IMG/VR virus record: IMGVR_UViG_3300005917_000010
Location: 1-40,814 of that record
Length of the DNA stretch: 40,814 bases
Strand: one strand, 5' to 3'
Source of the DNA: a virus
Made by a program: the position numbers and the translations under genes. The notes beneath the pieces are model-generated. The model ran no database searches. It worked only from the letters and a program-made list of their open reading frames with translations, and had not been told where the DNA came from. Shown here piece by piece: positions 9,623 through 24,571 of the stretch. How positions within the stretch are numbered: the first letter of the stretch is position 1; every line of letters starts with the position of its first letter.

Positions 9623-10345
9623 TCAAGGACCCGTAGACTCGTCGGGGGTGTCGTGCTTCTTGCGGTATGCGAGTAACTCTTCGTTATATGTGTCGATTAG
9701 CGCGGAAAAAGCCATTGCCATCTGTACAGGCACCTGACCGTTTCCGAGAGCCTTGAGTCTGTTCGCGCGGTCTGGAACCTTCCCAGTCAGTCGTGGTATC
9801 ACACCAATATCTGCCGGATCGGTTGCCCACCATGTGCCGTCCATCACGGAACGTTCCCACTTCTCAACATCCGGGGTGGCGTTCAGATCAGTCCAGCCGA
9901 CCGGCCAACCCATCAACCAGGCAACCCAATCGGGGTTCAACGAGCCCCAACGATGCCCATCAAGACCTTCAGGTATAACCTTTTCGATCGGTGGGCTCCG
10001 CCCATTATACCCGAGGCAATCACGGATCAAATCGCCGCGACCGCCATGTTCACCTTCGCTTGCACAAGGCGTCCGCCACATCCGACGGCCAACAACCGTT
10101 GTGCGGTGCACCATGTTGAGAAACCATGATCCATAACCTTTCCCGCTTGTGGTGTGCACCTGCTTCGGCAGCACTGAACACACCCCATTCTGCATCATAC
10201 CCCATTTCGGCCAAGTCGCCGAGAATGCATCCGAAGTATCCGTGAGACCGGGCAAGCAAGCCTGTAACGTTTTCCAACCACGCGAATCGTGGTCGTATTC
10301 TGCAAATGGTGTCCCTTGTCGCTGGCCACATATTTCTTTCGTCAT
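9623..10345 (-). pseudogene. Cytosine-C5 DNA methyltransferase, C-terminal fragment
   Basis: The frame contains the target-recognition region and the C-terminal signature of C5 methyltransferases: MWRTPCASEGEHGG (the usual W.TP.ASD block), WVAWLMGWPVGWTDL, and RLKALGNGQVPVQMAMAF (motifs IX-X). Meaningful homology starts near 10130. The N-terminal ~70 codons of this open frame are the out-of-frame shadow of the central fragment. Catalytic motifs I, IV, VI and VIII are on separate frames upstream, so this part alone cannot be active. Confidence 0.8.
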
Positions 10346-10382
10346 TCTCTGTCTCTTGTTTCCCTGCTACGCTAAACGGCTG
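10050..10382 (-). pseudogene. Cytosine-C5 DNA methyltransferase, central fragment (motifs IV, VI, VIII)
   Basis: Reading from 10382 gives QPFSVAGKQ (the continuation of motif IV, whose PC is split by the break), then RPRFAWLENVTGLL (motif VI, ENV) and HHKRERLWIMV (motif VIII). The frame then stops at 10050. It is separated from the N-terminal fragment by 7 extra bases at 10384-10390 (between two copies of cac) and from the C-terminal fragment by a further one-base shift between about 10130 and 10080. A start codon at 10331 exists but would omit motif IV. Confidence 0.75.
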
Positions 10383-10389
10383 GCACAGT

Positions 10390-10857
10390 TCACGGGAATC
10401 CAGCAGTGATCATATCTGCATCACCACTAGATTCCTCAGCGTCCTTCCGTTCGATTGGGGTGTTTGTTTTGTGCCACTCATGGTGGCACTTCTGGCAAAG
10501 CCATTGGACTTCAAGTGGATTATTGTAGTCGGCATGATGGGCCTGTATTGCTGATCGTCCGTCAGCAAACGATCCAGAATCTCCGCATGTCTCGCATTTG
10601 TCAGGTTTAGTAAGTAGCCCCTTCTCTAGTGCTTTTTCACAAAGATTCTGTGCCCTATCTGATGACTTCAGTCCACCGCGATAGAAGTGGTTGTCTGCAC
10701 CGTATCGAACATTTGGCCTGAATGAGACACTCCGTCTCTTGAGGATGTAATACATTGACTGGCGCGTGACATTGTGGATGTCCGCAACGTCACCAACCGA
10801 CAGCCCTGCCTCGTATTGACGGACCGCTTCATCGTAGTCCTTTCTATGTGCTGGCAT
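10390..10857 (-). CDS. HNH homing-type endonuclease nested in the methyltransferase
   Basis: About 155 residues from an ATG with its own strong CGGAGG site, as is usual for homing endonucleases living inside other phage genes. The N-terminus has a helix-turn-helix (GLSVGDVADIHNVTRQSMYYILKRR). The C-terminus has the HNH core with a zinc-binding pair: CETCGDSG, then IQAHHADYNNPLEVQWLC, then CHHEWH. It would cut DNA at the uninterrupted methyltransferase allele or a nearby site. The 9-mer GCAGATATG occurs at both edges of the insertion. Its stop comes from the 7-bp insertion in the methyltransferase. Confidence 0.8.
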   Translation of the reverse strand: MPAHRKDYDEAVRQYEAGLSVGDVADIHNVTRQSMYYILKRRSVSFRPNVRYGADNHFYRGGLKSSDRAQNLCEKALEKGLLTKPDKCETCGDSGSFADGRSAIQAHHADYNNPLEVQWLCQKCHHEWHKTNTPIERKDAEESSGDADMITAGFP

Positions 10858-11106
10858 ATCTGCCTCCGTATTAGAGTTACTCCTAAAATACGAAAGGCTG
10901 ACAAACTCTGCAATGTCTTCGTCTGTAAGTTCTCGAATGTCCCCATAAATCGGCGCATCGTGTAGTAATCCATCACTGATGCGCTTCTTAAGGAGGTGTT
11001 GGCAGTAACCATCGGATTCCACATATGCAATAGTGTCCCACCCAAGGAGGTGTTGACTTGCGAGTTCGCCACCACCGGCACCAGAGAATAGAGATACGAC
11101 GTTCAT
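10390..11106 (-). pseudogene. Cytosine-C5 methyltransferase N-terminal fragment read through an HNH insertion
   Basis: The frame opens with the classic motif I, VVSLFSGAGGGELASQ, followed by YVESDGYC and YGDIRELTDEDI, then runs without a stop into an HNH endonuclease, and ends with GDADMITAGFP just before the Cys of the catalytic PC motif. Removing 10384-10390 restores GFPCQPFS. The segment from about residue 68 to 222 is foreign to the methyltransferase. The start at 11106 overlaps the upstream stop by ATGA. Confidence 0.8.
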
Positions 11107-13009: not shown

Positions 13010-14076
13010 GTCTGTTCCTCCTCAAATATGTCATTCTGGTTGGTCTCCGGTTCCGCGCTCATCTCGAACCAATCCGCGAGACGTTTCAGCATGTATTCCG
13101 CGTCAATGACGTTGAACAGTGAAACCTCCATCCCATTAATCATTCCCTCTGCGTAGTCCCGGACCTCCGAGTCTGACGGGTACTCGTCGTCCACCTCAAT
13201 CGTCCGGTCAGGGACGGCCACGTTGACCGCCCACTCTCCGCTCTCCGAACGTTTGCAGGTTACTATCGCCGGTGAACTCCAGAACGCCGTCTCGACAGAC
13301 TGGAGAATATCAGCGATCAGTGATTCCCGGTACGTCATCTCGCCTCCTTTGCAGCGATCCATGGGTATCTGGTGATTTGTCCAGCATCTCCAATTCTGGA
13401 CAGCTTGCACAGCATGCTGTGAATAGACCTTCGGGGATGAACTGAACACGGTGTGCAACGTTCCGTCCGGGTGTGTGAAGTATTCCGTCACATCCTCATC
13501 TCTAGAGAAGTCTGGACGCTGTTGCGCCGGGAGTGTAAACGTCTTGAGGTACTGAACGACGGTAGTCCAGTCGGTGTAGACCACACCGTTCTCATCATCG
13601 TATGAATCACCGAAAACCTCTTGCACAGCGTATTCACAATCGGCACGGGAGAACGTTCCGGCCTTGATGATCCCGACCAGTTCATCATCGCTGTGGAATG
13701 GAGTCCAGCCGATAGCATCAGCGGTCCGGAGTGCCAGCAGTTCCTCCGGCGGGTTCAGGTCGGATAAAGCAGACCACAGTTCACAGGCATCAGCAGACCC
13801 GTCAGCGTATGGCATGAACTGCTCATCCCGCAGGATTGTGTACAGTAGCCCGGAGTCGTGCCGGACAAGCATCGCCTCATCGTGTCCGGCAGGTGGCGCA
13901 AAGGATACGAGCGGGACTATCTCGTGTACCCAATGTCCGATGGGTATAGTTTCCCCTCCTGTCTCTTTCCAGACGCTCTCGGTCTCTGTGAGGGACTGGA
14001 GGACGGTTTCTCGGCTATGCTCTCCCGGTAGAATTACCGAGATAATATCGCCGTCTGGGTTTCTGATGATCTTCAT
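13006..14076 (-). CDS. Hypothetical protein with two tandem HDSGTLHTV-type domains
   Basis: 356 residues from the ATG at 14076 (AGGAG 9 nt upstream, in the GGAGAACCAGAC context shared with other starts here); a longer form from 14154 would overlap the loader gene by 82 nt. Residues ~1-115 and ~125-230 are tandem copies of the domain also found at 11449-11871: RHDSGLLYTI and THPDGTLHTV, each followed by a conserved Trp helix. The last ~120 residues are different, acidic and partly helical. It sits directly after the DnaC-like loader (ATGA overlap), so a link to replication is conceivable but unproven. Confidence 0.6.
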   Translation of the reverse strand: MKIIRNPDGDIISVILPGEHSRETVLQSLTETESVWKETGGETIPIGHWVHEIVPLVSFAPPAGHDEAMLVRHDSGLLYTILRDEQFMPYADGSADACELWSALSDLNPPEELLALRTADAIGWTPFHSDDELVGIIKAGTFSRADCEYAVQEVFGDSYDDENGVVYTDWTTVVQYLKTFTLPAQQRPDFSRDEDVTEYFTHPDGTLHTVFSSSPKVYSQHAVQAVQNWRCWTNHQIPMDRCKGGEMTYRESLIADILQSVETAFWSSPAIVTCKRSESGEWAVNVAVPDRTIEVDDEYPSDSEVRDYAEGMINGMEVSLFNVIDAEYMLKRLADWFEMSAEPETNQNDIFEEEQT

Positions 14077-15107
14077 GTCTGGTTCTCCTGTTTGTCGAGG
14101 TCGAGGAACCCATGCGCCCGGTAGTCGGGTGCGTTTACAGTTATGTACGCGCACGCCTTCGCAAGGCGCGATCTCGTCCGGTCATCTTCTAAAAATGGCG
14201 TACGTTCGAGGATTCGGATCTGTGCCTCAATCGCCGCGCGGTCGTCACCTGTTGCTGACCCAAGCCTCCTCTGTGCCTCTGCAAGTTTGGTCTCACGTAT
14301 CTCGTCTGGGAGCATCTCATGCTTCGGTGCGTTGGTGGTGATAACCAGGCGCACGTCTCGTGCGTCTGCCCAGTTCAGTAGATCGCGGAGCGTGTCCTTT
14401 TTCGCGTCAGTCAGGCGTGATGCTCCAAGGTCATCCAGCACCATCGCAAGCGGTGGGACGTTCCCGCTGCTGCCCTTCAGTATTGACAGGTTCTTCCACG
14501 TACTGTCATCGTACTCGGCTTCTTTCGCATATCCGGCGGTCGCGGAGCAATTCGCGAGGAATGCACCCAGATCGACAAAGCAGGTGCGTCTCCACTTTGA
14601 CGGGGTCCGCTTCTTGAGTTCTGCCAGTATAGCAATGGCAAGGTGTGTCTTGCCCGATCCAGCGGCTCCGCACATCAACAACCCTTGACCGTTTATGATC
14701 TTCCCATCATCGTCAGTCCGGGTCCGCCAGATGCCTTTTTCCAGATACCGGATAATCGTTGCGTGGACACTCACCAGACCCGGGTGTGGTTCCCCGTTAG
14801 GTGTGGACGTTGCGAAGTTCTCCAACGTACAACCACGGTATGCAGTCGGGATTTTGGCATAATCTTTAGCAACCTCTTCCCTTGACTTGTCATCATCTTC
14901 CTGCATACGTCTGGCTTGCTCTTCTTTCGACCGCTTGGCTTCTGCCTGTGCCTTCTCAGGATCGGCCCTTACCTCATCCAGCGCTGCCTGTGCTTCGCTG
15001 GATTCAAAGGTCGGAGATGAGTCTGTCTTCTTCGGCATAGGCTTCTCGTGCGATTGGGAGGACTTTTCCGTCGGAGTGTCCTCTATCACCCGTATTACTT
15101 CGTCCAT
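14073..15107 (-). CDS. DnaC-like AAA+ helicase loader
   Basis: 344 residues. A long charged N-terminal region (~1-85) precedes an AAA+ ATPase: Walker A GAAGSGKT at residues 147-154, Walker B LAMVLDDLGA near 219-228, and sensor-like LVITTNAP. This is the DnaC/IstB-type arrangement used by phages to load the replicative helicase at the origin. It follows the O-like initiator, overlapping it by 104 nt. An internal ATG at 15038 would give a shorter protein but still overlap. Coupled by ATGA to 13006-14076. Confidence 0.85.
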   Translation of the reverse strand: MDEVIRVIEDTPTEKSSQSHEKPMPKKTDSSPTFESSEAQAALDEVRADPEKAQAEAKRSKEEQARRMQEDDDKSREEVAKDYAKIPTAYRGCTLENFATSTPNGEPHPGLVSVHATIIRYLEKGIWRTRTDDDGKIINGQGLLMCGAAGSGKTHLAIAILAELKKRTPSKWRRTCFVDLGAFLANCSATAGYAKEAEYDDSTWKNLSILKGSSGNVPPLAMVLDDLGASRLTDAKKDTLRDLLNWADARDVRLVITTNAPKHEMLPDEIRETKLAEAQRRLGSATGDDRAAIEAQIRILERTPFLEDDRTRSRLAKACAYITVNAPDYRAHGFLDLDKQENQT

Positions 15108-16095
15108 TAGATTTCCCCTTACGGCTTTGTGCTTTCAGCATGTTGCGGAGATACGTTTCGTGATTATCCAATGTGCATCCGTCTACCGGATCACTCGCCC
15201 GTTCGAGATGTTCCTGTATCCCGTCGAGGACGGTCTGTGTCTTGTATTGGTCCTGCAGGCCACCGACCAGCTTGCAGATTGTTTCACCATTCCACTTGCG
15301 GAGTTTGTCTTTCTTCTGGTCCCGCCCCTCGATGACGACAAGCTCCTGATACAGTACCCAGACCCAGTATGCGAGTACGTATTCGGCCTTCGACCCGAAT
15401 CGGTCATCCAGCTTCTTTTTCGCACGATCCGTGCAGAGCCGTTTGCGTATTCGCTGCGCCTCCGGGTTGATTTCTGATACGTCTGTGAGCCGACGTTCCT
15501 TGTCCGTCATATTGGTCAATACCTCTGTTGTATTTGTTGTGGTGTCCTGTGCGGGTTCGGGAGCACTCCTACTCCTTCCTTTGTTCTCTTCCTTGTTCTT
15601 TTCCTTGTTCTCTGTTCTAGGCTCTAGTTCTATGGGACAGTGTGTCCCTTGAGGGGTGTCGTCATGGGACGGTGTGTCCCTTGAGGAGTTATTAACCGGA
15701 CAGTGTGTCCCTTGAGGGGTGTCGTCATGGGACAGTGTGTCCCTTGATACATCTTCTGTCATGGGACAGTGTGTCCCTTGAGGGGTGTCACTCACTTCCT
15801 CGGGTAGAAGGATGAGGTACTGGTTGTGCTTCCATTTCTTCGTCGTCACGACCAGTCTAGCAGAGACGAGTTCCCGGACATCTCGACCGGCTTGTTTCGT
15901 AGACCTTCCAAGATCAATCCCGATAGTCTCCTCAGTCGGCCAAGCATCACCACCACCGTCCGACCGGAAGAGCAGATACATGTATGCCGCCCGTGCCGTC
16001 GCGCTCAATGTCTGATAGACCGGGTGGTCGAATATCATGTATGGCATCCTGTAGTTATGCTGTTGACTATCCGGGAGTGATTCGGTATTTTCCAT
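15004..16095 (-). CDS. Replication initiator (lambda O-like) with winged-helix N-terminus
   Basis: 363 residues. Residues ~17-100 look like the winged helix-turn-helix of phage replication proteins (YLLFRSDGGGDAWPTEETI, then STKQAGRDVRELVSARLV). Residues ~105-155 are a low-complexity repeat (DTPQGTHCP and variants) that exists because the DNA here is an array of iterons. A Lys/Glu-rich linker follows (~160-175), then a C-terminal part likely to contact the loader or helicase (~225-345). The start at 16095 has GGAG 9 nt upstream. Followed by the DnaC-like gene, the order is that of lambda O and P. Confidence 0.8.
   Translation of the reverse strand: MENTESLPDSQQHNYRMPYMIFDHPVYQTLSATARAAYMYLLFRSDGGGDAWPTEETIGIDLGRSTKQAGRDVRELVSARLVVTTKKWKHNQYLILLPEEVSDTPQGTHCPMTEDVSRDTLSHDDTPQGTHCPVNNSSRDTPSHDDTPQGTHCPIELEPRTENKEKNKEENKGRSRSAPEPAQDTTTNTTEVLTNMTDKERRLTDVSEINPEAQRIRKRLCTDRAKKKLDDRFGSKAEYVLAYWVWVLYQELVVIEGRDQKKDKLRKWNGETICKLVGGLQDQYKTQTVLDGIQEHLERASDPVDGCTLDNHETYLRNMLKAQSRKGKSNGRSNTGDRGHSDGKVLPIAREAYAEEDRLISDL
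15565..15632. other. Asymmetric pyrimidine/purine tract beside the iterons (possible unwinding element)
   Basis: About 68 bases that are nearly all C/T on the plus strand (A/G on the minus), made of repeats of ccttgttct. It lies on one flank of the iteron array inside the initiator gene, where lambda has its AT-rich unwinding region. Unwinding function is inference. Confidence 0.45.
15634..15777. repeat. Five iterons with ~32-bp period; probable replication origin
   Basis: Five copies of a 15-bp palindrome gggacaGTGtgtccc start at 15634, 15666, 15697, 15729 and 15763 (spacings 32, 31, 32 and 34 bp, close to three helical turns). Copy 2 has g for a at position 6; copy 3 has c for g at position 1. 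Most are followed by cttgaggggtgtc. They lie inside the O-like initiator gene, as the lambda origin lies in O. Confidence 0.8.
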
Positions 16096-16399: not shown

Positions 16400-17056
16400 C
16401 TACTCCCTGTAGCTACTGGCGTCAAGCCACTGCGTCGCGGACTCTACGGCGTCACGAGATAGGCCGTTGAATATGATCTGCGGGACAACACGGCCATTCC
16501 ATCCACTGTCTTTTTGATCTGTCCCGGTTCGCTCCATGATCTTGTTACACGTCACCGTGGAATCAATGAGGTGATTGAGTGCGTTCACGGCAATACCCCG
16601 CAGGTCGTAACTGGTAGGGACACCGCACCGTTCAAGAAACGCCTGCATCCTTCGTATACCATCAATCTCACACTGATGCAAGCTGTCCCCAATCTCCCAG
16701 AATGAGACGAACCCTTGCCTATCGGAGTATATGATTTTGATTGTAACGTCTGTGTCTATATCATCGTCAGGGTCTTCGGCTGGGTTTTTTACTAGCTCAA
16801 CTCCGGGGGGCAGATCATGGGCCCACCTTACATCAATAAGTTCACAGTCAGGAGCGTCACTGCTACGGCCGAAAGAGATTAGCAGATCGTCGTCTTGTTT
16901 ATTGATCTCTATGCAGAGACGTTCATCAATCACGATACGACAGCATGAGCCAGTGCCTGGTGCGTCAGGATTGATAACAGAGACCGTGTGAGGTTCATCG
17001 TTGATGAGTATATCATCAATCTCCACGTATGACCCGGTGTTCCGTACGACCTTCAT
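16400..17056 (-). CDS. Hypothetical acidic protein, 218 aa
   Basis: Starts after GGAGG of the small upstream gene. The N-terminal ~85 residues are beta-rich (YVEIDDILINDEPHTV; CRIVIDERLCIEI), the middle is very acidic (AEDPDDDIDTDV), and the C-terminal half is helical with several Cys. No recognised family. DNA seems more AT-leaning than the adjoining genes. Confidence 0.55.
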   Translation of the reverse strand: MKVVRNTGSYVEIDDILINDEPHTVSVINPDAPGTGSCCRIVIDERLCIEINKQDDDLLISFGRSSDAPDCELIDVRWAHDLPPGVELVKNPAEDPDDDIDTDVTIKIIYSDRQGFVSFWEIGDSLHQCEIDGIRRMQAFLERCGVPTSYDLRGIAVNALNHLIDSTVTCNKIMERTGTDQKDSGWNGRVVPQIIFNGLSRDAVESATQWLDASSYRE

Positions 17057-17196: not shown

Positions 17197-17964
17197 TTAC
17201 ACTGGTGCGTCGTCCCCAAGGTGTCGCCGTAGGTTCATGAGTGCGGGTTTCGACATCGAATCATATGCCATCTTGTATTTGGTCTGGCATGTCGCACGAA
17301 CATATTCCATCGTCATGTCGGGGTTGGTCTTCGCTCTCTCGGCCACGAACTCCTCAATCCGCGTACGTACCTTGATTACATCTTCGGTGGCGTTAGGGAC
17401 GCTCCCAGCAGGTACTGCGGTGGTTCCGTTGCGCGGTGCCTGTCCGTCCGGGTCAGTTCGTCCGGGGTTCCTTTCTGGTCGTCGGGAATTATCTCGCTTC
17501 TGATCCTTGCTATCCTGGCTAGCTTCGGAATCCTCAGAAGCACCGGGCATGTGGATGCAGAAAACCTCATTAGCCATGACCTTGTATGCGGCGGTATGGG
17601 CCATGTTCGCGGATTTGTCCCCGGTATCGGAACCCTGACCGAGGACGGTGCAGGTTGTTTCACTACCATCGGGCGCGGAAAACGTGAACTTGACGAGCAT
17701 CTCTGTCAGGGTCATAGCTATCCCCTTGCTCGTCTCAAAGTCTACGTGCCGGATGCTATCAGGTTGAACCTCAGGCATGATCGCCACGCCGTTCTTACTG
17801 AGCGCGTCATGGATGCCTGCCATGATATCGTCAATACCCCGGAAGGGATATTTTTGATGATCGTTCCAGCCGTCTTTTCCAATTCCTGGTATCTCTGCGG
17901 AGACCTTCGCCAGCAGTGCGTAGATTTGCGGTGCGGCGTTGGTGGTCGGTTCCTCTTCAGGCAT
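17197..17964 (-). CDS. ERF-family single-strand annealing protein
   Basis: 255 residues. The ERF core is clear in the N-terminal ~140: WNDHQKYPFRGIDDIM, then HDALSKNGVAIMP, and GSDTGDKSANMAHTAAYKVM, the conserved GDK...A.T.A.K block. A charged, disordered linker follows (~145-185) and a small helical C-terminal domain (~195-255). ERF proteins of phage P22 type anneal complementary strands for recombination and genome circularisation, which suits a circularly permuted genome. Overlaps the upstream gene by 8 nt. Confidence 0.85.
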   Translation of the reverse strand: MPEEEPTTNAAPQIYALLAKVSAEIPGIGKDGWNDHQKYPFRGIDDIMAGIHDALSKNGVAIMPEVQPDSIRHVDFETSKGIAMTLTEMLVKFTFSAPDGSETTCTVLGQGSDTGDKSANMAHTAAYKVMANEVFCIHMPGASEDSEASQDSKDQKRDNSRRPERNPGRTDPDGQAPRNGTTAVPAGSVPNATEDVIKVRTRIEEFVAERAKTNPDMTMEYVRATCQTKYKMAYDSMSKPALMNLRRHLGDDAPV

Positions 17965-22855: not shown

Positions 22856-23729
22856 CACCTGCGTGTTGATCGTCACGCACGGGAGGCCGGATAATCAGTT
22901 GACGACGAAGTCTCTTCGCAGGCAAGGATATACGGGTCGTATCATCTACGCGCTCGATGACGAAGACCCAACCCTGCCTGAATACATAGAGCAGTTCGGG
23001 GATGACGTGGTAGTCTTTTCAAAGGCTGAGGCGATAGCCCGAACCGACGACGGGCACAACTGGGCGGATCGCGCCTCCGTCGTCTACGCTCGGAACATGC
23101 TGTGGGACATAGCCCGAGAGGCCGGGTATCAGTATTTCATCGCGCTCGATGACGACTATTTCTGGTGGTACTACCGGTTCCTCAGTAACGGAACGTATGG
23201 GAATGTGAACATCGCGTCGCTCGACCTGCAATTCACAGCCATGGTCGAATACCTCTCGGAAACTCCGTTCTACTGTATCTCAATGTCTCAAGGTGGAGAC
23301 TACATCGGAGGCGGTGGGGAACGAAACAAAAAAAGTAACAAAAGTTCGATCACAGGGATACGGAAGGCAATGCAGGTCTACGTATGTGACGTGGATAGAC
23401 CTTACCAGTTCCGGGGCAAGTTCAATGAGGACGTAACCGCGTATTCGCATGAGTCGAGGATTGGGGTCTCATTCCTGACGCTTATGATGTCACAGGTTCT
23501 CCAGAAGCCAACGCAGGTGATTGAAGGGGGAACCTCCGAGCAATACAAGAAGTGGGGAACCTACGTGAAAACGTTCTTCACCGTGATGTATGCACCGTCG
23601 TGTTGTAAGGTGTCGATGATCCGAGACTTCAAGGACGGGCACGAAGGCGATTCACGTATCCACCACATAATCCTCGGAGACCACGCGCACCCGAATATCA
23701 TATCTGACAAATGGCGAAAGGAATCATGA
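22845..23729 (+). CDS. GT-A glycosyltransferase, GREB1/TAGT-like, copy 1
   Basis: 294 residues; ATG after GGAGGAAAAGG. Opening CVLIVTHGRPDNQLT, then IIYALDDEDPTLPEY, VVYARN, and YFIALDDDYFWWYYRF with the metal-binding DDD at 102-104. This is the pattern of the TET/JBP-associated (GREB1-like) glycosyltransferases that add sugars to hydroxymethylated pyrimidines in some phages. A close paralogue follows directly. The nucleotide-sugar donor and acceptor are unknown, and no TET/JBP oxygenase or hydroxymethyl-nucleotide synthase is visible in the window, so the acceptor might come from the host or another route. Confidence 0.75.
   Translation: MRSDTCVLIVTHGRPDNQLTTKSLRRQGYTGRIIYALDDEDPTLPEYIEQFGDDVVVFSKAEAIARTDDGHNWADRASVVYARNMLWDIAREAGYQYFIALDDDYFWWYYRFLSNGTYGNVNIASLDLQFTAMVEYLSETPFYCISMSQGGDYIGGGGERNKKSNKSSITGIRKAMQVYVCDVDRPYQFRGKFNEDVTAYSHESRIGVSFLTLMMSQVLQKPTQVIEGGTSEQYKKWGTYVKTFFTVMYAPSCCKVSMIRDFKDGHEGDSRIHHIILGDHAHPNIISDKWRKES
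22896..23025 (+). repeat. 130-bp block nearly identical to 23780-23909
   Basis: The two glycosyltransferase genes share this block with only two mismatches, without gaps, while sequence on either side is well diverged at the DNA level. It encodes LTTKSLRRQGYTGRIIY and DDEDPTLPEYIEQFGDDVV. The sharp edges suggest recent gene conversion. Confidence 0.85.
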
Positions 23730-24571
23730 TGAGGCTGGATACCTGCGTACTAATCCCGACGCATAAGCGACCCCACGCCCAGTTGACGACGAAGTCTCTT
23801 CGCAGGCAAGGATATACGGGTCGTATCATCTACGTGGTCGATGACGAAGACCCAACCCTGCCTGAATACATAGAGCAGTTCGGGGATGACGTGGTAGTCT
23901 TTTCAAAGGAGGATGCCGCCACACAGACGGATGATGGTCATAACTGGGGTGATCGTACCTCCGCTGTCTATGCCCGGAACTTCTCTTTCCGGGCGGTGAA
24001 AGATGCAGGTTATCGCTATTTCATCATGCTGGATGACGACTACTCAATGTGGTACTACCGGTTTCGGGAGGACCGGACGTATGGAGTCACGAGGATTAAG
24101 TCGCTTGATCTACTCTTCGCGTCGCTGGTCGAATACCTCTCGGAGGCTCCACTCAGATGTATATCAATATCACACTCTGGAGACCACGCCGGGGGCGGTG
24201 CGGGCAAGACTGAGATTGGGGCGAACCGGAAGGCACTCAGTGTGTACGTGTGCGATGTAGAACGTCCGTATCAGTTCCGGGGGATGATGGAGGATTATAT
24301 TACCCACATACACGAGCAGTCGCGTGGGAACACTATGCTCTCGGTGACGATGGCTCAGTATGTCTGTAAGGAAGCACTGCACCAGAACGAGGGCGGCCTG
24401 CATGACGTATACGAATCACGTGGCATGTATACCTCGTGCTTCTTCACCGTGATGTATGCACCGTCATGCTGTCGGGTAGACGCGCAGAGTCCAGACAAGA
24501 TGTATCACGCGATCAACGGGCCTGCTGCATATCCAAGGATCATCCACGAACAGCACAGAAAGGCACGATGA
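23726..24571 (+). CDS. GT-A glycosyltransferase, GREB1/TAGT-like, copy 2
   Basis: 281 residues, ATGA overlap with copy 1. Same motif order: CVLIPTHKRPHAQ, YVVDDEDPTLPEY, YARN, YFIMLDDDYSMWYYRF with DDD at 103-105, and the shared tail FFTVMYAPSCC. Outside the converted block the two proteins differ at many positions, in particular in the region after the DDD motif that usually shapes the acceptor site, so they may act on different sugars or in sequence. Confidence 0.75.
   Translation: MMRLDTCVLIPTHKRPHAQLTTKSLRRQGYTGRIIYVVDDEDPTLPEYIEQFGDDVVVFSKEDAATQTDDGHNWGDRTSAVYARNFSFRAVKDAGYRYFIMLDDDYSMWYYRFREDRTYGVTRIKSLDLLFASLVEYLSEAPLRCISISHSGDHAGGGAGKTEIGANRKALSVYVCDVERPYQFRGMMEDYITHIHEQSRGNTMLSVTMAQYVCKEALHQNEGGLHDVYESRGMYTSCFFTVMYAPSCCRVDAQSPDKMYHAINGPAAYPRIIHEQHRKAR
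23780..23909 (+). repeat. 130-bp block nearly identical to 22896-23025
   Basis: Second copy of the converted block, in the same place in the protein. The two mismatches (at the A-L versus V-V codons) change residues just before the DDEDP motif. Confidence 0.85.

Follow-up and report, generated by a model that had tools for sequence, protein, structure and literature searches.

Few phage origins have been mapped experimentally. Lambda O, with iterons inside the gene and an AT-rich tract, is the textbook case of an in-gene origin (PMC7466680). In 80alpha, ORF20, an initiator with an annotated internal origin, and the DnaC-like ORF21 are necessary and sufficient for replication, and loss of ORF20 cannot be complemented in trans (PMC5499656). 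Rep of plasmid pSK41 uses its winged helix to bind four boxes that lie within rep, where they encode a dispensable linker; the chimeric Rep of pPR9 has a PF13730 HTH_36 N-terminus from a phage-like protein (PMC5703833).

The window analyzed here is a 40,814-base virus record taken at full length, and coordinates refer to the whole stretch. One of its genes probably encodes a replication initiator and bears five near-identical palindromic repeats within its coding sequence. We consider it very probable (about 0.87) that this array is a lambda-type in-gene iteron origin bound by the initiator it encodes, where binding, melting and origin activity are what we infer from the repeats and their surroundings. 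The lambda ori design had been proposed in an initial annotation of the sequence, and its elements are present: in-gene iterons beside a winged helix, an AT-leaning asymmetric tract and a neighboring helicase-loader gene.

As in lambda, the initiator gene lies beside the helicase-loader gene, the iterons follow the DNA-binding part and use several reading frames, an AT-rich tract adjoins them, and the palindromes have an odd-centered axis (TCCCTCA-AAA-CGAGGGA in lambda). The two systems differ in their half-sites and in that lambda has four annotated iterons inside O that are 20-24 bp apart, whereas the window has five at 31-34 bp. The 80alpha ORF20-ORF21 module is likewise an initiator with an embedded origin followed by a DnaC-like loader, although its repeats are of the TGGAAAAACCGTTA type rather than GGACA palindromes. 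RepA_N plasmids such as pSK41 share with the window a winged-helix N-terminus, boxes inside rep and an origin-encoded linker, whereas the pPR9 repeats differ in sequence from the window iterons and the window protein scores below the curated RepA_N cut-off (PF06970, 16.7 versus 30 bits). Streptomyces pWTY27 was also considered and set aside, as its iterons lie outside the gene and are unrelated. The features of the locus are as follows.

14073..15107, minus strand: DnaC-like helicase loader gene, directly downstream of the initiator gene, predicted P-like role (phrog_50, E 1.8e-19; phrog_3277, 1.1e-11)
15004..16095, minus strand: replication initiator gene, 363 aa, matching phrog_270 and phrog_186; N-terminal winged helix, iteron-bearing linker and C-terminal domain
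15566..15633: putative unwinding tract adjoining iteron e; pyrimidine-rich on the plus strand, purine/A-rich on the coding strand
15634..15648: iteron e (GGGACAGTGTGTCCC), the last copy within the gene, read in frame 0 as GTHCP
15666..15680: iteron d (GGGACGGTGTGTCCC), read in the other frame as RDTPSH
15697..15711: iteron c (CGGACAGTGTGTCCC), read in frame 0 as GTHCP
15729..15743: iteron b (GGGACAGTGTGTCCC), read in the other frame as RDTLSH
15763..15777: iteron a (GGGACAGTGTGTCCC), the first copy within the gene, at codon 107, read in frame 0 as GTHCP
15778..16095, minus strand: predicted winged-helix DNA-binding domain segment, residues 1-106, core about 25-95

The palindrome array and its gene

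The five iterons lie where they had first been reported, starting at 15634, 15666, 15697, 15729 and 15763, and all are internally palindromic as claimed, each a 15-bp site of the form GGGACA-N3-TGTCCC. Three are perfect copies of GGGACAGTGTGTCCC, and the remaining two carry one change each (GGGACG at 15666 and CGGACA at 15697); on the coding strand, the palindrome arms of two copies reach 10 bp with one mismatch (TCAAGGGACA-CAC-TGTCCCATGA). Sites with at least 11 of the 12 arm bases number five, against 0.13 expected per shuffled window; all five fall within 144 bp, and no further such site was found elsewhere in the 40.8-kb window. The spacings of 32, 31, 32 and 34 bp correspond to 3.05, 2.95, 3.05 and 3.24 helical turns at 10.5 bp per turn. 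The proposal of a 31-34 bp period that places the copies on one face of the helix thus holds in that the spacings are near three turns, but the final spacing departs from this by roughly a quarter turn.

The array starts at codon 107, directly after the winged-helix domain, and spans codons 107-154. A near-identical second contig, IMGVR_UViG_3300023297_000134, bears the same array, and the comparison within this phage covered these two records. That contig, otherwise 99.9% identical, lacks about 290 bp at 16757-17048, within the ORF at 16400-17056.

The iterons alternate between two reading frames, with a, c and e read as GTHCP and b and d as RDTLSH and RDTPSH. The array had initially been described as encoding DTPQGTHCP repeats; QGTHCP does occur, but in only three copies, and those at 15666 and 15729 are frame-shifted and give RDTPSHD and RDTLSHD. 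It is therefore the DNA that is conserved and not the peptide, and correcting the frames strengthens the case for DNA-level selection that had been made for the array. Shuffling synonymous codons of the initiator gene gave a mean of 0.73 sites and a maximum of three in 2,000 runs, versus the five observed, and agrees with that claim.

The initiator matches phrog_270 (replication initiation protein; E 7.5e-6, residues 25-178, across the domain and linker) and phrog_186 (DnaD-like; E 4e-4), families that, as PHROGs, have no curated cut-off, and it scores below the curated cut-off of PF13730 HTH_36 (E 6.7e-5, 23 versus 25 bits). When residues 1-106 were aligned with 13 other initiator N-termini (14 in total), AlphaFold2 predicted a confident winged helix with a mean pLDDT of 82 and core blocks at 84-97; a full-length single-sequence model (pLDDT 36.7) was left out of the analysis. 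The phrog_270 match and this model identify the gene as one encoding a replication initiator with a DNA-binding domain. Structural neighbors of the model are mostly winged-helix regulators but also include the RepA_N initiators 4pt7, 4pql and 4pta (TM 0.57-0.60), and neighbors among viral models include several proteins named replication initiator and, as a weak match (E 1e-3), O of phage Min27. These matches speak for the predicted fold and not for function. Protein relatives sought with a protein-only search were limited to the near-identical contig and one weak match to another phage, the latter from tblastn of phage records, lambda included; that search found no sequence match to lambda O, and a sequence search of solved structures gave only chance matches. 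The family evidence is therefore by analogy.

Downstream of the initiator gene, the phrog_50 match marks a DnaC-like helicase-loader gene, and an Erf-type recombinase gene lies upstream (17197-17964). The pyrimidine-rich flank noted initially is real, the 60 bp from 15566 being the most pyrimidine-rich of the window (87% on the plus strand). The tract beyond the last iteron is also the most strand-asymmetric 60 bp in the window, and positions 15574-15633, with a GC content of 0.40, are in the lowest 0.8% of windows, which is consistent with an AT-rich unwinding tract beside the iterons. GC skew, which had been suggested as a check, is uninformative at the array; it tracks gene direction and switches near 7 kb and 19 kb.

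Elsewhere in the window, the ORF at 10390-11106 combines the beginning of a C5-cytosine methylase with an HNH endonuclease, the ORF at 9623-10345 matches the end of DNA methyltransferases, and the region 9623-11106 looks like a methylase gene split by a homing-type endonuclease. In the rightward gene cluster, the neighboring stretches 22896-23319 and 23780-24204, each about 430 bp, share 77% identity and look like the product of a gene duplication.

The palindrome in other phages

IMG/VR was searched by DNA motif alone, with GGACA-N3-TGTCC as the motif and gaps of 10-38 bp within triples. Triples were found in 35 stretches versus none for the reversed motif, and pairs in at least 119 stretches versus 13 for a scrambled control. 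Among 86 ORFs around the arrays, 37 match phrog_270, 27 match phrog_428, 27 match the O-like phrog_678 and 25 match HTH_36, counts that overlap since one ORF may fall in several families. Because the search used no protein, it independently supports the assignment of the repeats to initiators. Some of the arrays selected in this way either fall in no long ORF or occupy ORFs without demonstrated initiator identity. The window repeat had been called unrelated to that of lambda; the half-site does differ, but the GGACA-N3-TGTCC core is not private to the window and recurs in the initiator genes of many unrelated phages.

Once near-duplicates were removed, 104 loci provided 191 spacings, 75 of them at 21-23 bp, with smaller peaks at 33-36 and 42-46 bp. 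The clear two-turn peak touches the lower bound of the search pattern, and helical phasing at larger spacings is modest (p 0.004-0.16, varying with range and period). Within ORFs, 61 of 92 arrays span more than one reading frame, one and the same palindrome being translated in two or three of them. The initial annotation had proposed looking in relatives for conserved repeat phase and not for conserved amino acids; in these phages the encoded peptides vary, whereas palindromes and spacing persist. The array starts at median residue 112 in 54 initiator-length ORFs (residue 107 in the window initiator), and the 70 bp that follow it in these ORFs have an AT content of 0.538 versus 0.457 in the rest of the gene (p 5e-7). 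A direct search of the window initiator against the other 85 array-ORF proteins found no detectable similarity, and the shared site is therefore either very old or convergent.

Palindrome pairs in species genomes were also considered and were set aside as mixed loci, those at L008-L010 and L012 lying in repeats without a clear initiator. Genome bins of Tannerella and Silicimonas have same-core arrays with 23-bp steps outside a clear initiator gene (L008:330-388, L009:2771-2851 and L010:5347-5449). Winged-helix genes of Brevibacterium (L011:2559-2711 and L013:1792-1911) contain GGGGACA-N3-TGTCCCC arrays read in all three frames, and no close plasmid relatives of these genes were found in the collection searched. 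GGACA palindromes are absent from the rep genes of Tuc2009 and TP901-1.

Covariation in a sister family and a possible common grammar

A sister winged-helix family of 42 distinct genes was gathered by protein and not by motif; a separate family scan, which yielded nothing beyond close E. coli relatives, was excluded from the tests. Recurrent gapped palindromes with a three-base center occur in 30 of the 42 genes, versus 3.0 expected from synonymous shuffling. Only odd center lengths are enriched, which points to one symmetry axis. The sites have the form NNNNCA-N3-TGNNNN, are mostly 21-24 or 42-46 bp apart and often begin at gene offset 332 (0-based), followed by copies at +22 and +44/45. Of 33 arrays, 21 extend over more than one frame.

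The first half-site base covaries with the variable residue of the recognition-helix motif T-x-[R/K/E]-R: R occurs with T or C (18/18), K with G or A (12/12) and E with C (3/3). The R/K association is concordant in 30 of 30 cases (Fisher 1.2e-8). On the tree of the family each trait changes nine times and the label is not clustered; independent pairs on well-supported branches number only three, all of them concordant (3/3). The covariation was spotted by inspection and tested afterwards, in a winged-helix family different from that of the window initiator, and is the strongest evidence here that initiators of this kind read their own in-gene sites.

Many O-like and DnaD-like initiators of lambdoid, staphylococcal, Geobacillus and Listeria phages also have NNNNCA-N3-TGNNNN arrays in the linker, as the window does, although these are mostly at two-turn multiples and the winged-helix family and half-sites differ from those of the window. 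The window itself has an odd-centered CA/TG palindrome repeated in the linker after the winged helix. A further possibility, to which we give even odds, is that winged-helix phage initiators share one in-gene grammar, in which NNNNCA-N3-TGNNNN sites with two-, three- or four-turn spacing come right after the winged-helix codons and have outer bases set by recognition-helix residues. Origins and specificity groups would then be readable from sequence in diverse phages, and the GGGACA type of the window would be one widely recurring specificity. No earlier description of a cross-phage iteron grammar was found in the open-licence literature; it is apparently undescribed so far, a provisional statement because the search was limited to open-licence papers. 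A second iteron type is found in 80alpha (L329:1757-1800) and pPR9 (L331:17972-18060), where direct repeats that contain CCGTT, without the CA-N3-TG palindrome, occupy the same place in the initiators and are followed by AT-rich repeats. Since these repeats are of other sequence, the design is wider than the CA-N3-TG grammar.

Alternative roles of the palindromes and a proposed mechanism

What else might the palindromes do? One possibility is that they serve as operators and not as an origin, with transcription of the replication genes under the control of the initiator or of a different phage regulator. A palindrome recognized by a winged-helix dimer is typical of operators as well, initiators often autoregulate, and regulators predominate among the fold neighbors of the window winged helix. 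The array, however, lies more than 300 bp inside the gene, away from the promoter, no iteron copy occurs upstream of the gene, and the arrays of other phages retain the position in the linker, so we regard an operator role as improbable.

A functionless recent tandem duplication would account for the linkers b-c and d-e, which are identical, and for a 50-bp unit that recurs at 98%. Given the identical linkers, part of the array may indeed stem from a recent duplication. Yet the linkers a-b and c-d have diverged and are at best 42% alike, whereas the iterons are on average 95% alike, and same-core arrays are present in the initiator genes of unrelated phages; duplication as the whole explanation is very unlikely. 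Selection at the protein level for a repeated low-complexity linker (DTPQGTHCP), with the DNA repeats as a by-product, would explain the identical peptide from three copies, but it is already contradicted by the frame data, in that two copies give a different peptide via the shifted frame and other phages read the palindrome in two or three frames; protein-preserving codon shuffling, moreover, destroys the sites, and we give this explanation hardly any credence. We give as little credence to mRNA hairpins that, for example, slow translation or end transcription. Each palindrome could form a 6-bp stem with a 3-base loop as read from its sequence, but such hairpins leave the near-helical spacing, the coupling to winged-helix initiators and the residue-base covariation unexplained.

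The palindromes are most likely the initiator's own binding sites and would therefore mark a replication origin. Winged-helix dimers would bind the palindromes encoded in the linker of the same protein, and initiator molecules on sites about three turns apart would come together in an O-some-like complex. Melting would take place in the neighboring purine-asymmetric, AT-leaning tract, and placement of the replicative helicase would fall to the C-terminal part of the initiator together with the DnaC-like loader that the next gene encodes. This would make the array the likely origin of theta replication, which, as in lambda, is retained within the initiator gene.

Should the grammar hold, sequence alone would suffice to predict an origin together with its cognate initiator. 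The residue-base covariation would offer a direct and cheap way of testing how initiators of phages select their origins, and it would also bear on which phages and plasmids would interfere with one another in replication.
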